DNA of 27,703 nucleotides from a virus. Position numbers and translations under genes: made by a program. The stretch's first letter is position 1; each line of letters starts with the position of its first letter. Below the pieces are notes generated by a model. That model did not search any database and was not told the DNA's origin. It saw only the letters and a program-made list of their open reading frames with translations. Below, piece after piece: positions 4,135 to 21,286 of the stretch. The stretch covers positions 1 through 27,703 of the IMG/VR virus record IMGVR_UViG_3300045884_000241; one strand, given 5' to 3'.

Positions 4135-4160
4135 GCCCTTGCGAGTGCGAAGCAAGGCGA

Positions 4161-4191
4161 CGGCGGGCAGCGTTGGCTGCCCGCCGTTTTT
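4161..4191 (+). terminator. Strong rho-independent terminator
   Basis: Perfect 11-bp arms CGGCGGGCAGC (4161-4171) and GCTGCCCGCCG (4176-4186) with a GTTG loop are followed by TTTTT (4187-4191). It ends the recombinase operon and isolates the HNH-DGQH gene. Confidence 0.92.
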
Positions 4192-4273
4192 CATCCGCCG
4201 TTCTTTACTTCCCGCCAATTCCCGCTATTCTTGCCCTAGTTGATTTTCCGATAGCCAACCCAAGGGGGAAATC

Positions 4274-5893
4274 ATGGGATCGCTCTACCTCTCCAAGCTG
4301 TCAGCCCAGGGCCGTTACGACCTCATCTGCAAGCTGCATGATATTCAGGGCGGCAAGTGTTTCATCTGCGAGCAAGAGATTGATTTGGCTGTTCAGAAGG
4401 ACGACCTGGACATTGACCACGTTGTACCAACTGCGATGAACGGCAAGGATGATCCGTCAAACTTCGCAGTGACGCATTTGAGTTGCAACCGATCCAAACA
4501 AGACGCCTACCTCGAAATCGCCAGGATTCTCCATCGCTTCGGCAGACTGTCGGAAGAGACGACACAGAACCACAATCGAAACCCGAACCTCGATGATATT
4601 CTGAAGCTGCGAGGAGGTTCGCAGCACACAACGTCCTTTTCTGTGTCGGGCGGATTCGTCAAGTTTTCGTTCAGCAAACTTGGCCGAAACGACATCATCA
4701 AGCTACCTCTCTACAAAGACTCATTGAGCGGATGCGAATATTTTTTTTCGACGTTCCCGATTGAATGCCTCTACCACGACATACGAATCAATCCTCGTGA
4801 TATCGGAAGCAGCATTTCAAAGCTGCTAGTCGAGTTTTATGAAAAGCGCCCGCAGCTTCACGTTGCGCTAGGCTGGATCGAATGCAAGGACGGCGATAGC
4901 GGTTCCCAGGTGAACGTCTTTGATGGACAACACAAGACCGCAGCACAGGTACTCTTAGGTGTCAAAGAGATTCCTGTCAGGGTTTTCGTCAATCCTGATA
5001 CCGATGTTCTGTTGGCTGCGAACACGAACGCAGGCACTACGCTAAGGCAAGTCGCCTTTGACAAGTCAGTGCAACGGCATCTCGGCAGTACGCTCTATTT
5101 GGAGCGGGTGAAGCGCTACAAGGAAGACTTGGGCAAGGCCGACGAGGACTACAATTTCTCCGAACGTGACTTGGTGAAATACTTCAAGGGCCAGGCCCGT
5201 GAGATGAAGAGGTTCATACTTGACGCCATCCGTGATTGGGTTACTCACAACGTCGATAACAAGCTGAAAGAGTATGTTGATTTGAGCGGCAAGGGCAAGG
5301 AACGTCCCGTTTCCTATAGCTCAATCGAAAAGACGTTCTATAGCCTCTTCATTTTCCAAGAGGCGTTGGAGACGCCGATTTCTCAGGGCCTTGACATTGG
5401 CAATAATCCGAGGGAACTAGAAAAGTCGCAACTGCTAAACCTCATGAATGTGGTTGCCGAGGAACTGTTCATCGACAAGTTTAACTCTGACGTGTCGGCC
5501 GACCGAATCGAAAAGAAGCTGCAAGACGGGGAAAGTCTGCCGTTGGATCATATCCGATGCTGCCGTCTCTCCCGTGAAGAAATCATGTTCAACTGGTTGA
5601 AGCATATCAGGGGTATCATTCAAAATTACTTTCTGACGAACGGCAGGCCCTACAGCGATGAAAAGCTGTTCCATTCCCGTTTTGACAATCAGCTTTGGCA
5701 AAACATCCGCAACTATATACGGAACCTATCAGATTTGCCCGTCTGGGTCAACCGTGACCTTTCAAGGACAGTCTTCGGCGGCAAGCAAAATCATGACTAT
5801 TGGGAAACCATCTTCGGAACAGGCAAATCGCCGCAGGGCGTCAAAGTACTTGCAGAGCCTATCAATCTGATTCAAATGACAAAGCGGGACTAG
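4274..5893 (+). CDS. HNH endonuclease fused to a DGQH(R/K) ParB-like domain, 539 aa
   Basis: AAGGGGG lies 5 nt before the ATG. Residues 15-75 are an HNH nuclease of the zinc-binding type: C29-x2-C32, D48-H49 with V-V-P, N63, H68, C71-N72 and K75. After a variable linker, residues about 155-250 contain V-F-D217-G-Q-H-K221-T-A-A-Q-V-L-L-G-V-K-E-I-P-V, the signature of DGQHR/ParB-like domains known from DndB-type proteins. The usual final Arg is Lys here. The C-terminal 280 residues are helical and unrecognised. In GmrSD-type enzymes a DGQQR (DUF262) domain precedes the HNH domain; here the order is reversed. The gene stands alone between two terminators, like a cargo or moron gene. A role in attacking modified or foreign DNA is inferred. 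Confidence 0.8.
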   Translation: MGSLYLSKLSAQGRYDLICKLHDIQGGKCFICEQEIDLAVQKDDLDIDHVVPTAMNGKDDPSNFAVTHLSCNRSKQDAYLEIARILHRFGRLSEETTQNHNRNPNLDDILKLRGGSQHTTSFSVSGGFVKFSFSKLGRNDIIKLPLYKDSLSGCEYFFSTFPIECLYHDIRINPRDIGSSISKLLVEFYEKRPQLHVALGWIECKDGDSGSQVNVFDGQHKTAAQVLLGVKEIPVRVFVNPDTDVLLAANTNAGTTLRQVAFDKSVQRHLGSTLYLERVKRYKEDLGKADEDYNFSERDLVKYFKGQAREMKRFILDAIRDWVTHNVDNKLKEYVDLSGKGKERPVSYSSIEKTFYSLFIFQEALETPISQGLDIGNNPRELEKSQLLNLMNVVAEELFIDKFNSDVSADRIEKKLQDGESLPLDHIRCCRLSREEIMFNWLKHIRGIIQNYFLTNGRPYSDEKLFHSRFDNQLWQNIRNYIRNLSDLPVWVNRDLSRTVFGGKQNHDYWETIFGTGKSPQGVKVLAEPINLIQMTKRD

Positions 5894-5930
5894 AACGTAC
5901 TGCGACTATTTTCGTTTTCTTGAGCGACGG

Positions 5931-5964
5931 CGGGCGAGGCGTGTTGCCTTGCCCGTTTTGTTTT
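5931..5964 (+). terminator. Rho-independent terminator
   Basis: The arms CGGGCGAGGC (5931-5940) and GCCTTGCCCG (5946-5955) form 10 bp with one G-U pair and a 5-nt loop, followed by TTTTGTTTT. It separates the HNH-DGQH gene from the terminase operon, only 27 nt before the terminase start. Confidence 0.85.
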
Positions 5965-5975
5965 CATGCGCCATC

Positions 5976-5985
5976 ACTCTAAATA
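5976..5985 (+). promoter_or_regulatory. ACTCTAAATA box before terminase operon
   Basis: ACTCTAAATA ends 5 nt before the ATG at 5991. The 11-mer CACTCTAAATA is identical to the one before the minus-strand gene at 2404. There is no Shine-Dalgarno. Because a terminator lies directly upstream, a promoter must act here, and this box is the best candidate -10. A weak -35 (TTGTTT) lies about 16 nt further upstream. Confidence 0.55.
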
Positions 5986-5990
5986 CTTCC

Positions 5991-6503
5991 ATGAGCGATT
6001 GGACAGAACAAGAGCTAGCCGAGATCGAGGCCCCGATCTTGGAAGAGTTGCCCCCTGACTACGTGGCCCCGAAACTCGAAAGAGACCCGAAGGGGCGATT
6101 GCTTCCTGGGCATTCGGGCTTGAAGAAACCAAAGCCAAAACCTGTCAGCGATTCCCAGCTAAAGCGCCTTGCGAAACAGGAACTGACATTCTTGACCCAT
6201 CACGAGGAAGTTGCTCTCAAGAGAGAAGCAATCCATTCCGTCATTGGCGAATACGAGATGAAAAAGGCAATCGTTGACTTATACGAGGCCGCACTAGCTG
6301 CCGAGAACCCATACGCAAAGGTAGCGTTGATGCGATTGTTTTTTGAACAAACCGTTGGCATGCCCCCAAAGCAACTTGAGGTACAGAGCACGCAATACCA
6401 GTACAAGCAATCGATTGACTATTCAAAGCTGACGAAAGACGAATTGGCCCAGCTTGAAAAGCTGGCGAGCAAGTTTGCACCAACGGAGGGCAATGCTCTC
6501 TAA
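5991..6503 (+). CDS. terS: Terminase small subunit (probable)
   Basis: The product is 170 aa and directly precedes, with an 11-bp overlap, the terminase large subunit. It is a charged, mostly helical protein. The N-terminus is acidic (MSDWTEQELAEIEAP), followed by a basic segment around residues 20-60 (RDPKGRLLPGHSGLKKPKPKP) of the kind seen at the front of planctomycete and proteobacterial phage small terminases. A central region about 80-125 could form the oligomerisation helices. No helix-turn-helix is obvious by eye. The start at 5991 is set by the ACTCTAAATA box; an upstream in-frame ATG at 5966 would run back toward the terminator. Assignment rests mostly on position and size. Confidence 0.65.
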   Translation: MSDWTEQELAEIEAPILEELPPDYVAPKLERDPKGRLLPGHSGLKKPKPKPVSDSQLKRLAKQELTFLTHHEEVALKREAIHSVIGEYEMKKAIVDLYEAALAAENPYAKVALMRLFFEQTVGMPPKQLEVQSTQYQYKQSIDYSKLTKDELAQLEKLASKFAPTEGNAL

Positions 6504-8023: not shown

Positions 8024-8032
8024 TGGTATAAT
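8024..8032 (+). promoter_or_regulatory. Extended -10 promoter of the DUF4238 gene
   Basis: TGGTATAAT is a perfect TATAAT preceded by the TGn extension. No good -35 is seen at 17 nt, which fits an extended -10 promoter recognised by the host housekeeping sigma factor. Transcription would begin near 8039, just before an in-frame GTG at 8041. Confidence 0.65.
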
Positions 8033-8064
8033 TGACTAGAGTGAATGGCCCACGGAATCGACCC

Positions 8065-9066
8065 ATGAAATTCAACAAACAGCGAACGGTTCGCCAGCAC
8101 ACCGTACCTCGAAACTACCTTGCACGATTTCTTCCCCCTGGCGGGAACAAGCTTCACGTCTTCGATAAATTCACGAAGGCGACCTACGAAACGACACTCC
8201 CAAATATCGCTGTCGAAAACGGCTTTTTCGATTTCCCAGACGGCTACGAAGCGAAGGGTTATCCGAGAGAAGAGTACGACTATCAATTCATGGAACACAA
8301 CCTCGCCGAGGTCGAGGCGCAGTTCAAGGTTGACCTAGATGAGTTTCTTGGCGTAGTCGAAACGAAAGGCATCATGCCATTACACAAGGCCATGCTAGCC
8401 CCGTATATGGTCATCCAATGGTTACGAGGGCGTGAGTACAGGGAACGAATTCGACAGCAACGGGAGAAGCTGACGCTTTTGGAGTTCAAAGAATACTGCA
8501 AGAAAAAACACCCTAATGAACTGCCAGATGATTTTGATAGGTACGTGAAACTTGAATGGAACAAACATTTAGCGACAGCCGAGCAAATGACGCATTTGAT
8601 CGACGGGAAGCAAATCGAAGAGTTGGGCCTAAAGCTGCTAAATCACATTTGGGTAGTCGGCATCAATCGAACAATGCAGCCGTTTTACACGTCGGACAAT
8701 CCCGTTGTGAAGATCCCCCATCTCTTCAAGCCTGGGCGCAGCCTTTCGGGATTTGGTTCGCAAGGCGTCGAAATCGTGTTTCCATTGACACCTACTCATA
8801 TCCTCGTGTTATTTGAAAGACGCCATCACTACAAAGCGAATGGCCATCGGGAGGATGGCGTTCACCTTGTCAATTATCTTGGCGTTGATCGATACAACGA
8901 ATGGCAAGTGAAACAGAGCTATCGCCAAGTGTTCTGTACAAAGAAGGAATTTGAACAAGCACAAGGCGTATGCAGGCGATTCCCTGAAGTGTGCAACCCA
9001 GAGCGAAACAGAGTAAACGTCGAAAGACGTGGGGACGTGATTGCGATATTGAATGAGGCTTTCTGA
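8065..9066 (+). CDS. DUF4238 family protein, 333 aa
   Basis: The diagnostic features of DUF4238 are present. Near the N-terminus is R-Q-H-T-V-P-R-N-Y-L-A-R-F (about 10-22), and in the middle P-F-Y-T-S-D-N-P-V followed after about 30 residues by E-I-V-F-P-L-T-P. The biochemical function of the family is not established as far as I know. The gene lies between terminase and the minus-strand block and has its own extended -10 promoter. That makes it a likely moron expressed independently of the late genes, possibly in the lysogen. The ATG at 8065 is used here with a weak CGGAA upstream. GTG at 8041 is in frame and close to the predicted transcript start, so it is a real alternative (8 residues longer). 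Confidence 0.85.
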   Translation: MKFNKQRTVRQHTVPRNYLARFLPPGGNKLHVFDKFTKATYETTLPNIAVENGFFDFPDGYEAKGYPREEYDYQFMEHNLAEVEAQFKVDLDEFLGVVETKGIMPLHKAMLAPYMVIQWLRGREYRERIRQQREKLTLLEFKEYCKKKHPNELPDDFDRYVKLEWNKHLATAEQMTHLIDGKQIEELGLKLLNHIWVVGINRTMQPFYTSDNPVVKIPHLFKPGRSLSGFGSQGVEIVFPLTPTHILVLFERRHHYKANGHREDGVHLVNYLGVDRYNEWQVKQSYRQVFCTKKEFEQAQGVCRRFPEVCNPERNRVNVERRGDVIAILNEAF

Positions 9067-11880: not shown

Positions 11881-12447
11881 TTATACCTGGCTTGAATCGG
11901 AAGGCAAGACTTCGTTCCCCCAACACGTCCATTGGGGCCTTTGCTGCCTTGCAAAGCAATCTAGGTAAGGGCCTGGGGACATGGCTTCAATCAGATTGTA
12001 AAAGGCGTCGGGCTTGCGGGAATGCGTACCAGCCAACGGGTTTGTTTTCATCCAATTCAACTTGCCGATACCCGTAAATTTTTTCATCGGCTTGCCATAG
12101 AAGGCCAGCAGGCAATACTCGGCAGCAAAGACGTACCCGCAACAGGGAGCAATTCCAGACGACTTGACAAGAGGCATGCAGAGATGAAATCGGCAGCCCC
12201 AGGCATCCAGAACATCAAATGCCGAGCGTAGAAACTTGTTCGTTGTCCACAAGTAGACATGAGCGCCAACCTCGGCCAATGACGCCAGAGGAAACGATTT
12301 GATTTCATCCAAGGTCAAGGTTTGGTACGGCAACTCTCTTGCCCGTTGATGCCTGCGCCTGTCATACCGTCCTGTCATGCTCTGTTGCCATGCGGGATCG
12401 ATATTGATTGTTGCAAAACGAGAATTAGGTAAGTGTTCAAAAAGCAT
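11881..12447 (-). CDS. MT-A70 family N6-adenine DNA methyltransferase
   Basis: The 188-aa product begins with the SAM/catalytic motif I-N-I-D17-P-A-W20, the DPPW-type signature with Ala in place of the second Pro. It then has the family hallmarks L-T-L-D-E-I-K-S-F-P-L, V-Y-L-W-T-T-N-K-F, E-Y-C-L-L-A-F-Y-G, S-R-K-P-D-A-F-Y and a C-terminal W-T-x-W-G-N-E. This matches phage MT-A70 enzymes, which transfer methyl to adenine N6 in DNA. It is the first gene of the minus-strand block. Its ATG is preceded by ACTCTATTAGGAC with a TGTCAGG half-site abutting, and it is divergent from the portal gene across only 65 bp. Protection of phage DNA from host restriction is the likely role. Confidence 0.88.
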   Translation of the reverse strand: MLFEHLPNSRFATINIDPAWQQSMTGRYDRRRHQRARELPYQTLTLDEIKSFPLASLAEVGAHVYLWTTNKFLRSAFDVLDAWGCRFHLCMPLVKSSGIAPCCGYVFAAEYCLLAFYGKPMKKFTGIGKLNWMKTNPLAGTHSRKPDAFYNLIEAMSPGPYLDCFARQQRPQWTCWGNEVLPSDSSQV

Positions 12448-12512
12448 GTCCTAATAGAGTGTCAGGCAACCATTCTTGTCAGGAAGTGACAGGTAGCACA
12501 CTAAATAAAGAC
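12448..12512. promoter_or_regulatory. Divergent control region between methyltransferase and portal genes
   Basis: This 65-bp stretch holds a start-proximal box on each strand: ACTCTATTA (12452-12460, minus) and ACACTAAATA (12498-12507, plus), each 4-5 nt from its ATG. Between them are three TGTCA half-sites: TGTCAGG at 12460-12466 and 12477-12483, and TGACAGG starting at 12487. The compact layout of two back-to-back starts sharing three half-sites suggests joint control by one regulator. Confidence 0.6.
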
Positions 12513-14801
12513 ATGACTAAGGGCAAGAAACCAAAGGCAAAGCCAAAGGCAAGAAAGGCAACGCCGAAAAAGCTGCAAGAAAAAGCCTGGCCCAACTGGA
12601 TACCAATAGGCGGATCAAGCTACGCCCAGGGTTCCGATTACTGGGGCAGACCGAACCCAACAACAATCGACTTGATCGGGGCATTCAACGACACGGTTTA
12701 TAGTTGTTGCACGTTGATTACAAACTACATGGTTGACGTGCCGATTCGTCTTTTCGTCGAAACCGAGGACGGGCAACCGAGGCCAAAATGTAGGACGAGG
12801 CGTCCATCGAAAAAAAGTTTGGCCGTTGTCGAGAAACGCCTGGGTAGAGCAACCAGAGTAGAGGAAGTAGTAAGCCATCCAGCCCTCGATTTGCTGAACC
12901 ATGCGAACGGGTATCACAACTGGCTTGAACTAATCCAGCTAACGCAACTGTTCATTGACGTGACGGGCAACGCCTATTGGCTGGTACAAGCCGATGCGTA
13001 TGGCGTGCCGAGCGAAATCTATTTGCTGCCGACGCAAACAGTTGAACCGATCAGAGACGAGGCAACGGGCTACATCGTTGGATGGACTGTCACCAATGGC
13101 CAGAGCAAGACAGAGTACACGCTAGATCAAGTGATTCATTTCAAGACCCCCAGCCTCGCCGATCCTTACGGGATGGGGTATTCCCCCGTCATGGCGACAT
13201 GGAATCGTGTTCAAATCGGCGCAAAGGAAATGGGCTACCTTGACGCCACGTTATCGAACATGGGAAGGCCCGACGCTGTATTAAGCCCTGATGAACCGAT
13301 CAGCCCGCACGAGGCCGAACGGCTTGCCAAGGATTTCTTTCAGAGGTTCAGAGGCCAGGGCAGTGGCGGCATACTGGTTGCCGATGGCCCGATGAAGCTT
13401 AGCCCTCTCGGATGGCCCCCACGGGATTTAGCCGAGTACCAGTTGTACCAGTCCATCAAGTGGGCTGTCTCCAATGCGTTCGGCATTCCCCCAGACGTAT
13501 GGGAAATCGGCCAGGCCAATCGATCAAGCGCCGAGGCAGTCCTTTACGCCTTGGCTGTTCACGCCATCAAGCCTCGTGTATCGAGAATCGTCGAAAAGCT
13601 GAATGAGCGATTGATACCGATGTTTGATAATTCGGGGCGTCTCTTTTTTGAGGCCGACAGCCCGATACCAGAGGACAAGGAATTCCTGTTGCGTGAACGG
13701 CAAATGTTGTTGGCGACGGGAACCATCTTGAGGGATGAAGCCCGAACGCTGTACGGTTTCGATTCGGTTGATTGGGCGAAAGAGCCATTGGCCCCACCAG
13801 GGATGTTGCCGAGCGAGGCCCTTGCAGCCAGCCAGCTTGCCCAGCCGAGCGAACCCACCGAGGACAAGATCGATCGTTCGGCGCAGGCCCCGATCCTTGC
13901 GGCGCTGCAAGCCCAGGTTAACGCTGGCCAGATAAGCCGACAGGCAGCAATTGCCAACGTCGTCTTGACGATGGGGTTCGCCCAGGCCGAGGCCGAGGCC
14001 CTCTTCCCAGAAAAGCCCCCGAAGGTCATTGCCCCAGAGCCAGCCCCAGCCAAGGCGATGAAAACAAAGGCCCTGAAACGCAAAAGCCCAGAGCGATTAG
14101 CCAAGGCCATTGCCTCTTTCTTCCGTCATCAGAAAGCCAGTGTCTTGGAACACGTCAAGGCGTTGCCCGATCTTGAGACGAAAGCACACGACGAATTTTT
14201 CAACCTTGAGCATTGGTCAAAGGCGATGGCCGAGGCGTTGCGCCCTGTTGTGCAACTGTATGCCGATGACAGCGCACGCAAGACGGTAACCAGAATCGGG
14301 GCGACGTTGGATTTGTTCAACGTCACACAACCGAAACTGAAAGAGGGCGTCGATAAGGCCACGATGATTTTTTGCAAAGAGACAAACGACACAACCAGCC
14401 AGGAAATCGGCGTTGCGATCAAAGAGCTACGGGCGTCGTTGACCGAGGGCCTACAGGCTGGCGAGTACAACAACCAGCTTGCCAAACGTGTCGGGGCGAT
14501 TTTCGAGAACGCCGAGGTTTACCGATCCTGGCGCATCGCCGTTACCGAGGCCAATCGGGCGCAGCATGCGGCGCAATTCACGGTTGCCAAGGAATCGGGA
14601 ATCGTGAAGGGCAAGCGCTGGATACTGTCCAGTGAAGCTTGCGACAAATGCAAGCCGTTGGCTAACAAGGTCGTGCCATTGGAAGAAATCTTTACCAACG
14701 TGGATTTTGGAAACAAGGCTTACTCTGCTATTGAATACCCCCCGTTGCATCCTGCTTGCCGTTGCGATTGCATCGAGGTTATCGAAGGGATAAACGAATG
14801 A
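12513..14801 (+). CDS. Portal protein fused to MuF-like minor head protein, 762 aa
   Basis: Residues about 1-30 are a Lys/Pro/Ala-rich basic tail. Residues about 45-430 are an HK97-type portal, recognisable from Y-S-C-C-T-L-I-T-N-Y-M, L-L-N-H-A-N-G, G-N-A-Y-W-L-V, Y-L-L-P-T-Q-T-V and F-G-I-P-P-D-V-W. The portal forms the ring at the packaging vertex. A Pro/Ala/Glu-rich linker (about 430-530) leads to a MuF-like C-terminal domain (about 600-760): R-x-A-V-T-E-A-N-R, then W-x-L-S-S-E-A-C-D-K-C and H-P-A-C-R-C-D-C. These are separate genes in most phages. Start 12513 follows the ACACTAAATA box; an upstream opening at 12459 is less likely. It overlaps the next gene as ATGA. Confidence 0.92.
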   Translation: MTKGKKPKAKPKARKATPKKLQEKAWPNWIPIGGSSYAQGSDYWGRPNPTTIDLIGAFNDTVYSCCTLITNYMVDVPIRLFVETEDGQPRPKCRTRRPSKKSLAVVEKRLGRATRVEEVVSHPALDLLNHANGYHNWLELIQLTQLFIDVTGNAYWLVQADAYGVPSEIYLLPTQTVEPIRDEATGYIVGWTVTNGQSKTEYTLDQVIHFKTPSLADPYGMGYSPVMATWNRVQIGAKEMGYLDATLSNMGRPDAVLSPDEPISPHEAERLAKDFFQRFRGQGSGGILVADGPMKLSPLGWPPRDLAEYQLYQSIKWAVSNAFGIPPDVWEIGQANRSSAEAVLYALAVHAIKPRVSRIVEKLNERLIPMFDNSGRLFFEADSPIPEDKEFLLRERQMLLATGTILRDEARTLYGFDSVDWAKEPLAPPGMLPSEALAASQLAQPSEPTEDKIDRSAQAPILAALQAQVNAGQISRQAAIANVVLTMGFAQAEAEALFPEKPPKVIAPEPAPAKAMKTKALKRKSPERLAKAIASFFRHQKASVLEHVKALPDLETKAHDEFFNLEHWSKAMAEALRPVVQLYADDSARKTVTRIGATLDLFNVTQPKLKEGVDKATMIFCKETNDTTSQEIGVAIKELRASLTEGLQAGEYNNQLAKRVGAIFENAEVYRSWRIAVTEANRAQHAAQFTVAKESGIVKGKRWILSSEACDKCKPLANKVVPLEEIFTNVDFGNKAYSAIEYPPLHPACRCDCIEVIEGINE

Positions 14802-17724: not shown

Positions 17725-18642
17725 CTACTTCTCTGTTCGCTTCAAGGCCCTGTAGAAACTCCGTTCCCCCTTGTGGCCAGTATCCCTTTCCCACAAGGCG
17801 ATTTTTTCCTTGTAGCCGATTTTCATGGCGTTGATCTTGAGGGCAGTTTCAACGTCCCTTGCAACCCGATCCGAGCGCCGAACGACGATGGGCCTTTCCT
17901 GAATCCGACCTAGCAACAGTTCCGACCAGTGCTTGACGCTGTTGCCCGTCTTCCATTGCAGCCGATCCTTGAAGCCGTTTTGCAGCAGGCGAAGGTCAAG
18001 GTTGCGGCGCAGCTCACCGAGGCGGGTTCGGATCATCTCGCCAACTTCAAGGCATTCATCGGGCGTCAAGAAATCGTCGCCATACTGAAACCCATCGAGG
18101 CAGATTTTCTTTTGCAAGGCGAGCAATTCCTCGTTGCTCAAGTCAAGCTTGATGACGTTGATTCGTGTCTTGATGGCCCGAACCTCTGGGATTTCATCGG
18201 CGAGGTTGGCGTTGCTGATGACGATGATTGCGCCCGTAAACGGAAAGCGAATTTCCGTCTTGTGCGCCGTCCAAGTGATTTCACGGACAGGGGGCTTTTC
18301 TTTCGATTGCGACCAAAGAGCCGAACGCAAGACGCCAAAGGTTTTCTTGTCGTCCATCAGCGTTTCGGCATCCTCGATAAGGTGAATGTCGGCTGGCGAA
18401 CGCTCAAGGGCTTCAACCAGGCCCCTGGCTGTCAATCGGCTGTTGTGGTAGATGTATCGGGCTTTCTCGTCTCGCAAGACTTCAAGTACCTTGTACGATT
18501 TGCCCGTTCCGCCTTCCCCATAGAGGAAAAGCCCCGTTGCGAAATGCTTCGTGACGCCCCGTACCAAATCGGCAACGTGCGTCATCTTGTCCTCGATGCT
18601 TTCCAGATGGTCCCGTTCCTGTTTGGTCAGTTGCGATGACAT
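17725..18642 (-). CDS. AAA+ ATPase, 305 aa
   Basis: Walker A is G42-E-G-G-T-G-K-S49, Walker B is I-H-L-I-E-D (about 103-108), and sensor-1-like I-V-I-S-N lies near 160. These are features of a P-loop AAA+ protein of the DnaC/IstB-like or regulatory type. The C-terminal 100 residues are helical and basic (WERDTGHKGERSFYRALKR), plausible for DNA or partner binding. It could be a helicase loader, a replication accessory, or a defence or immunity ATPase; nothing adjacent decides. AGGGG precedes the ATG on the minus strand. The gene is antisense to the late genes and behind the best consensus promoter in the window, which sits in a cluster of TGTCA half-sites, so tight control is likely. Confidence 0.8.
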   Translation of the reverse strand: MSSQLTKQERDHLESIEDKMTHVADLVRGVTKHFATGLFLYGEGGTGKSYKVLEVLRDEKARYIYHNSRLTARGLVEALERSPADIHLIEDAETLMDDKKTFGVLRSALWSQSKEKPPVREITWTAHKTEIRFPFTGAIIVISNANLADEIPEVRAIKTRINVIKLDLSNEELLALQKKICLDGFQYGDDFLTPDECLEVGEMIRTRLGELRRNLDLRLLQNGFKDRLQWKTGNSVKHWSELLLGRIQERPIVVRRSDRVARDVETALKINAMKIGYKEKIALWERDTGHKGERSFYRALKRTEK

Positions 18643-18672
18643 GACTAGGCCCCTGTTTGAACGAATCGGCTA

Positions 18673-18793
18673 CCTGACACTTAATGTCATGATACGTAAA
18701 CTGTCAGGTAATGTCAAGTGTTGTGTCATGGAAACCTGGAAATATCCAGGCTGACACAACATGACAGTTTGTGTTGTGCGTCTAAATCTGTCA
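18673..18793. repeat. Cluster of eight TGTCA/TGACA half-sites with a 41-bp inverted repeat
   Basis: Half-sites lie at 18675, 18685, 18702, 18712, 18724, 18752, 18762 and 18789 (first base given; both orientations). CCTGACA (18673-18679) and TGTCAGG (18702-18708) are inverted copies. GTTGTGTCA (18720-18728) and TGACACAAC (18752-18760) form a larger inverted repeat that encloses CCTGGA-AATA-TCCAGG (18735-18750). This density looks like a multi-site operator upstream of the ATPase gene. Confidence 0.7.
18689..18717 (-). promoter_or_regulatory. Consensus promoter of the ATPase gene
   Basis: On the minus strand a perfect TTGACA -35 (18712-18717) and TATCAT -10 (18689-18694) are separated by exactly 17 bp. 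Transcription would start near 18682. TGTCA half-sites lie in the -35 itself, in the spacer (18702-18706) and at the start (18685-18689, 18675-18679), an arrangement typical of a repressed promoter. Confidence 0.75.
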
Positions 18794-18828
18794 GTATGTT
18801 ACCACGAAAAGCCGAGTTGTAAAGTGAA

Positions 18829-19590
18829 TTATTTCGCAAGATCGGCAACGATGGTTTCAAACAGGCCCTGACTGATGACCTGATAGCCGTTTTCGCCGTT
18901 CGGCTGGCAATTGGGCGCTTGGCAAAAAACTTCCAAGCAACGAGGGATCTTTAGGGCTTCCGCAATGGCGAATGCCGATGACTGGTTGCCAATGAACAGC
19001 TTGCAAGCTGCGATGGCCCTGGCGATTTCGTAGAAATTTTTCGGGTAGTGATGGGGAACGTTGATCTTGGCGAATCGGCGAAAGTCTCTGTATTCCTCTG
19101 GCAGTCCAAGAAAGATGATCTTGCTTTCGTAATGGCGCAGGAATCGGTAGCAAAGCTGGGGGTTGCGATACCTCATGGTTCGATTCACGAGGATCATCCC
19201 TCGGAACGATTCATCGGGATCGACAGTTAGCCAGGGTTCCCATGTCCGAGGGCAGACCTTGAACACGTAGCTGTAGTATCGGGCAATGTCGCCTTTATCC
19301 AACGGGAACCCGATTCCACGGAACCAATTCAAGTTGTAATCGGCCTGTTCGCCTTGCCAAATTCTCGCCTCGCCAATGTACGGTTGCTTCAAAAGCAATG
19401 GGATCAGGCCCTCGGCGTAGGCCCTGTTCATGCAGACGTTGCGCAACGGATGAGACACGCCATGAACGTAGCCTGCGGGATGATCGATTTCCAAGAGCAT
19501 GCAAGCCTTGTCGGGCTTGCACAGTTCCTTGACCGTCGCAAGCGAATACAGGGCGTCGCCCACGTTGCCCCACGTATGAAACGTCTTCAT
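18829..19590 (-). CDS. Glycosyltransferase family 9-like protein, 253 aa
   Basis: The start MKTFHTWGNVGDALYSL at 19590 carries the N-terminal G-N/D-x-G-D motif of heptosyltransferase-like GT9 enzymes. The C-terminal F-I-G-N-Q-S-S-A-F-A-I-A-E-A-L-K-I-P (about 205-222) matches their nucleotide-sugar site. Such enzymes transfer a sugar from an ADP- or GDP-like donor. The ATG overlaps the stop of the upstream glycosyltransferase (ATGA), so the two are one operon; an upstream opening at 19662 is inside that gene and rejected. The substrate could be host envelope glycan (receptor masking), virion protein or DNA; nothing in the sequence decides. No terminator is seen before the operator region downstream. 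Confidence 0.75.
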   Translation of the reverse strand: MKTFHTWGNVGDALYSLATVKELCKPDKACMLLEIDHPAGYVHGVSHPLRNVCMNRAYAEGLIPLLLKQPYIGEARIWQGEQADYNLNWFRGIGFPLDKGDIARYYSYVFKVCPRTWEPWLTVDPDESFRGMILVNRTMRYRNPQLCYRFLRHYESKIIFLGLPEEYRDFRRFAKINVPHHYPKNFYEIARAIAACKLFIGNQSSAFAIAEALKIPRCLEVFCQAPNCQPNGENGYQVISQGLFETIVADLAK

Positions 19591-20315
19591 GACGGCATCC
19601 AATCCGCCTTGGCATCTTTCGGGATGTTGCGATAGATGCGCACGTCTTGCAGCCCGATCCACGAGGACAGCATCGCTAGCGTTGGATCAGAGGCCCCCGT
19701 ATCGAGATGGCCCAGGCCGAGGCCAGAGGCCCCTGGCATTTGCTTCAAGCCGACATGCAACGGCTTGCCGTCGTTTGCTCGATTCGGAATCAACGTCCAA
19801 CGGCTGTCGTCTTGTGTCCCCTCGGACCAAAGATAACAGTCGATGTAAACGGATTTATGCAACTTGCAGCGCTCAACGAACGGGATCATGTCGGGCGTGA
19901 AGGCCGACGCTGCGAGGCTGGCGTGATGCGTGTTTCCCATTCGCTGATATTTGCGAACGGCAAGCTTGTAATACAAGTCGCCCTTCACGCCTGCCAACCT
20001 GTTGGTTTCCAGCAACGGCAAGAGTGATTCAATGAACGTGGCATGGTAGTAATCGTCATCTTCAAAGGCAAAGATTCTGTCGCCCTTGATCCTGGGAATT
20101 GCTTCAAGCCAGTTCAGGCATATCGACGGCAAGGCGTCTTTCTTGCTCGCCTTGCGATGGACAACCTCCTGGCCCATCGTGAATCGATAGCCTTTCAAGT
20201 CTTCCCCGACTACTAGCCATTGGTTCCAAGGCACAGTTTGACGGGCTACCCACTTTTCAAGCAAGGCAAAGCAACCTGGCCTGCCCGTTGTTGTCGTGAC
20301 AATTGTAATGCTCAT
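19587..20315 (-). CDS. Glycosyltransferase family 2-like protein, 242 aa
   Basis: The start at 20315 (MSITIVTTTTGRPGCFALLE) fits the usual GT-A N-terminus, T-x-T-x-G-R-P followed by a helix, with a W-L-V-V-G-E-D strand. I-F-A-F-E85-D-D-D88-Y-Y is the metal-binding DxD-type motif. Sequence after residue 150 (Y-I-D-C-Y-L-W-S-E-G-T-Q-D-D) is less typical of the family. AACTCTAATTA (20320-20330, minus) lies 4 nt before the ATG with no Shine-Dalgarno, so this is a start-proximal-box gene. It heads a two-gene operon with the GT9-like gene and is divergent from the connector gene at 20348. Cytoplasmic enzyme, no membrane segment seen. Confidence 0.75.
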   Translation of the reverse strand: MSITIVTTTTGRPGCFALLEKWVARQTVPWNQWLVVGEDLKGYRFTMGQEVVHRKASKKDALPSICLNWLEAIPRIKGDRIFAFEDDDYYHATFIESLLPLLETNRLAGVKGDLYYKLAVRKYQRMGNTHHASLAASAFTPDMIPFVERCKLHKSVYIDCYLWSEGTQDDSRWTLIPNRANDGKPLHVGLKQMPGASGLGLGHLDTGASDPTLAMLSSWIGLQDVRIYRNIPKDAKADWMPS

Positions 20316-20347
20316 GAAGTAATTAGAGTTACCAGCGTAAATATTGC
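20316..20347. promoter_or_regulatory. Divergent start-proximal boxes between glycosyltransferase and connector genes
   Basis: Only 32 bp separate two divergent starts. AACTCTAATTA (20320-20330, minus strand) ends 4 nt before the ATG at 20315. GTAAATA (plus strand, near 20337-20343) ends 4 nt before the ATG at 20348. Neither has a Shine-Dalgarno sequence. Confidence 0.5.
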
Positions 20348-21286
20348 ATGGCACTAATCACAAGAGCAAGGGCGACTGAACTGATTCCTAATTTCCCATC
20401 GGCTGATAACAGCGTAATGGATGACATTGTGAACGCTTCGTCGGATACTGTAATCAGATATTGCAACCGTGATTTCGCACTGACGACCTACGACGAGGTG
20501 CTTGATGGCTCTGGGGCAAGGAACCTCTTGCTAAGCCAATACCCCGTTACGCAAATCCTGCGCATTGCCACGAACAACACGAACGCAATGGGCATCCATC
20601 AGAGCGATACAGGATGTAGCCGAGCTTCCTGGCGATTGGACGGCACGACAGCCTCGCCATCGGTTCCGAATTACTTGTACCTTGTGTCGGCAAAGAACGG
20701 CGTTGAAACGGCCGTCACGATAGGCCCCGTCACGTCGGCAACCCCTACGGTTACGATCAACGGGGGCAGCCCCACGACGATAGCCCAGATGTTGACCCTG
20801 ACTGACCTGGCGACAGCGATCAATACCTACGGGGGTTCTTACGGTTGGCAGTCCATCGCCCTGGGACAATTCGGGACATGGCCGATAGCCGACTTAAGGC
20901 CCCCGCAGGGCGCACTTGAGGCACGATGGTACGGGTACGCTTTCCTAACGATGTTCGGCCTGAATTTCTTCCTGTTCGATTTCAACCCAGACGTTGGCGA
21001 GATTGTTTCGGCGCAGGGGTTCGATTTCGGCTATCGGAACTATCGGGTTATCTACCAGGCTGGCTATTCGACGGTTCCCAGCCCGATCCAACAGGCAGTT
21101 GCGGCGCTTGCCGTTTCCGTTTACCAGTCCAGAGGGATCAACACGAACCTTCAGAGCGAAAGCCTTGGCGGGTATTCCTACAGCCTGATTGCCGACAAGA
21201 CGTTTCATCAGCTTGACCTTGTTTCGAGGTACGGCTTGAATCTTTGGAAGTCTCACAGGATCGGGAAATTCAAGGTCACAGTGTAA
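20348..21286 (+). CDS. Head-tail connector (adaptor), HK97 gp6-like, 312 aa
   Basis: The N-terminus (R-A-R-A-T-E-L-I-P-N-F-P-S-A-D...V-N-A-S-S-D-T-V-I-R-Y-C-N-R-D-F) is the helical start of gp6-like adaptor proteins. The C-terminus has the matching closing helix, P-S-P-I-Q-Q-A-V-A-A-L-A-V-S-V-Y-Q-S-R, and G-G-Y-S-Y-S-L. These proteins form the ring docking below the portal. At 312 aa it is about three times the usual gp6 length. The extra region (about 80-225) is strand-rich, with T-P-T-V-T-I-N-G-G-S-P-T-T, and probably a beta-domain insertion decorating the connector. It starts a plus-strand run that continues through the tail genes with small spacing. Confidence 0.75.
   Translation: MALITRARATELIPNFPSADNSVMDDIVNASSDTVIRYCNRDFALTTYDEVLDGSGARNLLLSQYPVTQILRIATNNTNAMGIHQSDTGCSRASWRLDGTTASPSVPNYLYLVSAKNGVETAVTIGPVTSATPTVTINGGSPTTIAQMLTLTDLATAINTYGGSYGWQSIALGQFGTWPIADLRPPQGALEARWYGYAFLTMFGLNFFLFDFNPDVGEIVSAQGFDFGYRNYRVIYQAGYSTVPSPIQQAVAALAVSVYQSRGINTNLQSESLGGYSYSLIADKTFHQLDLVSRYGLNLWKSHRIGKFKVTV

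Follow-up and report, generated by a model that had tools for sequence, protein, structure and literature searches.

Beside the terminase genes of a tailed phage lies a gene for a 539-residue protein in which an HNH nuclease domain is followed by a domain with a DGQHK motif and by a large helical end. Its bacterial relatives adjoin several unrelated restriction and anti-virus systems, so the protein probably serves as a weapon against viruses and represents a rare family not yet described. The function that we favor, at slightly better than an even chance, is that of an NTP-gated, single-chain HNH nuclease of restriction type (or an accessory effector), carried against competitors. An earlier note on this DNA had proposed a phage-borne defense or superinfection-exclusion nuclease that senses modified DNA, and as a whole that interpretation is partly supported. 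Features are given below in coordinates of the window, meaning the whole stretch of 27,703 nucleotides that was analyzed.

4157–4212, plus strand: upstream terminator and following bases, repeat copy 1 (hairpin at about 4159–4188 plus a T-run)
4262–4269, plus strand: Shine-Dalgarno-like AAGGGGGA (from the sequence)
4274–5893, plus strand: HNH-DGQHK protein gene, ATG start, 539 aa
4301–4537, plus strand: HNH domain, residues 10–88 (Pfam, alignment of relatives, matches to Cas9 HNH structures)
4721–5047, plus strand: predicted ParB/sulfiredoxin-fold NTP-binding domain, residues ~150–258 (AlphaFold model, structure searches)
4922–4936, plus strand: DGQHK motif, residues 217–221 (translation, alignment of relatives)
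5021–5035, plus strand: NTNAG, residues 250–254, at the site of the DndB FxxxN motif (profile alignment)
5057–5890, plus strand: predicted all-alpha C-terminal domain, residues 262–539 (modeled separately; pLDDT 90.6, pTM 0.90)
5924–5990, plus strand: downstream terminator and following bases, repeat copy 2 (stem 5929–5957)

Domain composition of the HNH-DGQHK protein

Pfam, NCBIfam, PADLOC, and PHROGs contain no model that covers the whole protein, and no defense-family model does so. Its N-terminal part belongs with the HNH endonucleases of PF01844, which matches residues 29–77 (E 3.4e-7; 30.7 bits against a cut-off of 21.4) and whose DH, N, CN, and zinc-ligand pattern is present. The residues that the earlier note had called complete (C29, C32, D48, H49, N63, H68, and C71) are all there and are invariant in relatives down to about 25% identity. 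The modeled HNH region resembles Cas9 HNH domains (Z 7–8 over about 70 residues), and a profile of seven full-length relatives aligns with the HNH domains of ThermoCas9 and of a maturase. One role within the motif is better assigned anew: because C71-N72 falls on the Cas9 “CN” in the profile alignment, N72, which is invariant too, is more likely than H68 to be the third and last catalytic residue, and H68, occupying the position of a zinc cysteine in Cas9-type HNH domains, would then be a zinc ligand. Zinc would be held by C29, C32, H68, and C71, with D48, H49, and N72 as putative catalytic residues and N63 listed as structural.

An AlphaFold2 model built from seven relatives (mean pLDDT 83.6, pTM 0.55) places the HNH domain at residues 10–88 and a ParB/sulfiredoxin domain at about 150–258. 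Structures of sulfiredoxin with ATP (3cyi; Z 7.0 over 92 residues), PadC (6ryk; Z 6.7 over 99 residues), and ParB with CTP rank at middling scores of Z 6–7 (2.4–4.3 Å, 77–101 residues), and Foldseek on this part gives a probability of 1.00 yet E values of about 0.02, with many sulfiredoxin and ParB rows and without one strong match. The sulfiredoxin and ParB families share one fold; with two structural families converging on a single stretch, residues ~150–258 are predicted to adopt it. A ParB-like fold around residue 217, whose absence would have counted against the earlier note, is what the model returns. Judging from the aligned range, DGQHK would be placed at the NTP site, and it falls where sulfiredoxin carries FGGCHR, a comparison drawn for the DGQ motif of GmrS (PMC4619093). 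The motif sits exactly at the position first noticed; F216–K221 (FDGQHK) is invariant in all seven aligned sequences, including a 25%-identical relative, and N250 is invariant in the profile alignment of seven full-length relatives.

The best profile link of this part, a weak one, is to DndB. Alignment with hhalign to a DndB (PF14072) set scores 37.7 (E 6e-4; 28% probability, over 44 columns) across residues 210–253, reaching the Asn of FxxxN, against a maximum of 28.1 in 100 column shuffles and 19.1 for the reversed set. FDGQHK stands against (V/I)DGQHR in DndB, and the shared Asn, with a score above controls, hints that the DGQHK part may be related to DndB. DndB differs in being without an HNH domain. 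At E≤1 neither Pfam nor NCBIfam matches its family models, PF14072 and TIGR03187, to the window protein, which leaves the latter outside DndB/DGQHR as those models define it. The same comparison to DUF262 scores 23.5, within its shuffles (maximum 30.2), and detects no kinship. Neither PF03235 (DUF262) nor PF07510 (DUF1524) matches in Pfam, placing the protein outside the GmrSD/BrxU/SspE/DndI families, and PF02195 (ParB-CTPase) likewise gives no Pfam match.

Residues 262–539, modeled alone, fold confidently as an all-alpha domain. Searches of the PDB returned no convincing match (Foldseek best E 1.2; VIA best Z 4.3), an absence that does not prove the fold new. No modification-reading pocket was identified in the protein.

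Relatives and their genomic neighborhoods

Full-length relatives are rare and patchy, and the majority of those found are bacterial; the label “phage-borne” therefore fits the window copy and does not extend to the family. Seed genomes apart, 294 genomes of the Planctomycetota phylum yielded above about 90 bits only one relative (G259) and a partial, divergent one (G017), 299 genomes of a Clostridia-MAG phylum yielded none above that level, and 197 genomes of one family yielded a single match (G641). No relatives were found by tblastn in phage and plasmid collections, and scans of viral contigs returned only the same phage (L002/L053, the latter a second record; 100% identical over 12.9 kb) and one 102-kb viral record (L007). 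Many genome matches to the HNH part only were set aside as generic.

Defense genes stand beside five of the six independent loci: type III R-M, type I R-M (twice), a DISARM-like system, and AbiD. This is a raw count in which two Clostridia loci, L004 and L005, are taken as one and the divergent L043 is left out. By location, then, this is a putative anti-phage defense gene, in agreement with the defense role first suggested for it. In a Singulisphaera MAG (L003; 77% identity) a type III restriction enzyme gene ends about 620 bp 5′ of the gene; the Res fragment is recognized by PADLOC (REase_III, 81.8 bits) and by plasmid annotation, not by Pfam or the PDB, and its plasmid homologues come after a methyltransferase gene. 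In the Clostridia loci (42%) it comes fifth, behind hsdR, hsdM, hsdS, and a gene for an M78 protease; at another locus (L006) it precedes hsdM and hsdS; and at L051 AbiD is nearby. Neither L042 nor L043 has a recognized defense neighbor.

The relative in the 102-kb viral record (47%) is one of a row of genes on the same strand, namely DrmD (639 bits), DrmMI/type IIG, a gene of 186 aa without a match, DUF932, HNH-DGQHK, Mrr_N, a DruE-like helicase, TcmP, and DUF5131; an M78 gene comes later. The row forms part of a DISARM-like/type IIG island of about 25 kb (L045:5999-8005 to L046:13802) that is bounded on either side by a large serine recombinase and adjoins a tape-measure-like gene; it is possibly a recombinase-borne defense island in a phage or prophage. 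Genes for M78 (ImmA/IrrE-type) proteases recur near HNH-DGQHK (L004, L005, and L007/L046:9271-10056).

Comparison of the two Clostridia loci points to module exchange. Identity is 39% for hsdR, 47% for hsdM, and 41% for hsdS, against 72% for M78 and 94–95% for HNH-DGQHK, and DNA identity is 86.6% from within hsdS to the end of the HNH-DGQHK gene. The last two genes are far more alike than the restriction genes, and therefore the pair has been kept or moved apart from them. The copy in L004 (L004:8001-9602) is split by an in-frame stop; the intact copy in L005 is 95% identical.

The same neighborhoods bear on a suicidal role. An abortive-infection effector, whose ParB/sulfiredoxin part would degrade nucleotides or nick DNA while the HNH domain attacks host DNA, could draw on nuclease and nucleotide-degrading roles proposed in the ParB superfamily (PMC10853773, PMC12839542) and on the one relative beside AbiD. 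Most relatives are beside R-M-type rather than suicide systems and no toxin-antitoxin layout was seen, so that we regard this role as unlikely.

Proposed action and precedents

For the favored NTP-gated nuclease, a sequence of steps can be envisioned. The N-terminal zinc HNH domain would cut or nick DNA, as its fold and residues suggest; the ParB/sulfiredoxin-fold domain would bind, and probably hydrolyze, an NTP at DGQHK and thereby gate the nuclease; the helical C-terminal domain would, at a guess, be the likely reader of DNA or of a partner. Bacterial copies would travel as an add-on beside DNA-modification-based defenses, and the phage copy, if it benefits its carrier, would most likely be aimed at competing phages or other mobile DNA. 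NTP-gated cleavage is proposed by analogy: an HNH domain is under the control of a DGQQR NTPase domain in GmrSD, BrxU, SspE, and DndI, and DNA marks in turn govern the NTPase of SspE and DndI (PMC11662687, PMC8565348, PMC9646914, PMC10952713; as a mechanistic precedent also PMC4619093). Mutation of the R of DGQQR in DndI abolished ATP hydrolysis and lowered protection, and mutation of the N of its HNH motif lowered nuclease activity and abolished protection (PMC11662687). From the same four systems we infer that the window protein may sense modified DNA. Because methylase-based systems so often accompany it, the likeliest trigger is a DNA mark or something that the neighboring systems produce.

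A bolder version, speculative and on balance improbable, would make the protein a transferable, hitherto undescribed add-on effector of DNA-modification-based immunity, in which an HNH nuclease is coupled to a DndB-like NTP switch and to a helical reader of a new kind; it would join type I, type III, and DISARM-like systems by reading the marks or stalled complexes that these produce, and phages would have adopted it as a stand-alone weapon. Should the proposed action be right, the NTPase-gated HNH nucleases gain a rare family that puts the nuclease first, and one module has been plugged into several unrelated restriction systems and a phage. A testable question is whether a single accessory nuclease responds to a signal that type I, type III, and DISARM-like systems share; the small size and single-gene form of HNH-DGQHK should make for an easy assay.

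Likeness to known systems extends to design. GmrSD, BrxU, SspE, and DndI (DUF262 plus DUF1524) also unite, in a single chain encoded in defense loci, a ParB/sulfiredoxin-fold NTPase that bears a DGQ-type motif and a nuclease of HNH type. The window protein differs in being HNH-first (opposite to GmrSD, as had been remarked from the sequence), in the PF01844 zinc type of its nuclease, in its DGQHK motif and large helical end, and in a switch that appears DndB-like rather than DUF262, to which it has no profile link. Fusions of ParB-CTPase (PF02195) with HNH (PF01844) are named as novel, and as commoner in bacteria than in phages, in passages of Kaljevic et al. 2025 on such proteins (PMC12704722). 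They have the same fold pair and are given in those passages without function or domain order; the window protein may lie outside that survey because PF02195 does not match it. No description of an HNH-first order with a DGQHR-type domain was found in literature combining DGQHR and HNH. HNH and ParB fusions are already known in general; the domain order and the linkage to defense appear to be new.

A divergent relative of 638 aa (L015:994-2910 / L043:8776-10692) has about 180 extra N-terminal residues before its HNH and FDGQHK. Around FDGQHK it weakly matches DUF6551 (E 0.006), a domain of phage ParB-like proteins that the window protein itself does not match and whose fusions bind CTP or ATP (PMC12704722). 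The guess that its N-terminus might be a DNA-binding domain of B3/EcoRII type gained no support.

The phage locus and its flanking terminators

The record has terminase, portal, capsid protease, major capsid, and tape-measure genes. A serine recombinase and a small lipoprotein-like gene are followed by the HNH-DGQHK gene, a small-terminase-like gene (start at 5994), and the large terminase. The start codon of HNH-DGQHK is right, since it is common to the full-length-aligned relatives; a consensus scan left no promoter assignable. Compared with its 77%-identical Singulisphaera counterpart, the protein has a dN of 0.146 and a saturated dS, and is therefore under purifying selection and maintained.

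Upstream of the gene is a hairpin of 13 bp followed by TTTTT (about 4159–4192; RNA fold), and downstream a terminator at 5929–5957 was marked by a consensus scan whose terminator count is not above shuffles. The two are related, forming an imperfect direct repeat (56 against 67 bases) with a local alignment score of 45; 2000 dinucleotide shuffles reach 34 at best, and no other stretch of the window exceeds 35. Copy 2 ends at TACTTCC, immediately 5′ of the small-terminase ATG. On the simplest reading, the gene and a terminator were inserted at a former lipoprotein-terminase junction. Two related terminators around the gene are what cargo would have, and together with the rarity of the family they support the stand-alone cargo cassette that the earlier note had surmised. 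The stretch 5′ of the gene in the Singulisphaera MAG reads LTVCAILKGIAA* and resembles the end of the window recombinase, LSRPTVYAILKGQAA* (79% over 43 bases, E 0.002; asterisks mark stops); because of this match, recombinase and HNH-DGQHK gene may have traveled together.

Intergenic insertion with related flanks, an HNH domain, and a serine recombinase gene nearby would also suit a free-standing homing-type endonuclease that spreads between phages, the repeat being its insertion scar. A conserved non-HNH part of more than 400 residues is unusual for homing enzymes. That part, and relatives packed into operons with restriction systems of several unrelated kinds, make such an enzyme quite improbable here.

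Elsewhere in the window an MT-A70 family methyltransferase (11881–12447, minus strand) comes near PADLOC type II MTase models; it may protect the phage DNA, and nothing connects it with the HNH-DGQHK gene. This distant gene is all that the phage copy could call on if the protein were a regulator rather than a nuclease, that is, a DndB-like NTP-dependent repressor or a partner of neighboring modification genes. In sequence, the DGQHK part links most closely to DndB, which is described as an ATP-dependent repressor (PMC12704722, PMC10853773). None of the HNH residues varies among the relatives and the phage copy is without a surrounding modification operon, and we give the regulator little credence. 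A place directly upstream of the terminase genes recalls terminase-adjacent HNH proteins that are known packaging parts (GVE2 HNHE, PMC5304195), yet a role in helping to cut concatemers is very doubtful: the gene has its own terminators on both flanks, the protein carries a ParB fold and a helical domain besides, and the R-M operons that house bacterial relatives are free of phage genes.

Directly 3′ of the large terminase, a DUF4238 protein whose annotation gives no function (8032–9066) is a possible further cargo gene, and AAA ATPase-like, unrecognized, and weakly glycosyltransferase-like genes lie on the opposite strand within the capsid-tail module (17725–20354, minus strand). A 30-nt direct repeat (471–500 and 804–833; 90%) around a small ORF (525–812) resembles the repeat that flanks HNH-DGQHK. 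The portal (12459–14801) has relatives of 31–40% identity in Planctomycetota genomes, including the genome with the closest HNH-DGQHK relative; from this search, which covered Planctomycetota alone, the host may belong to that phylum.
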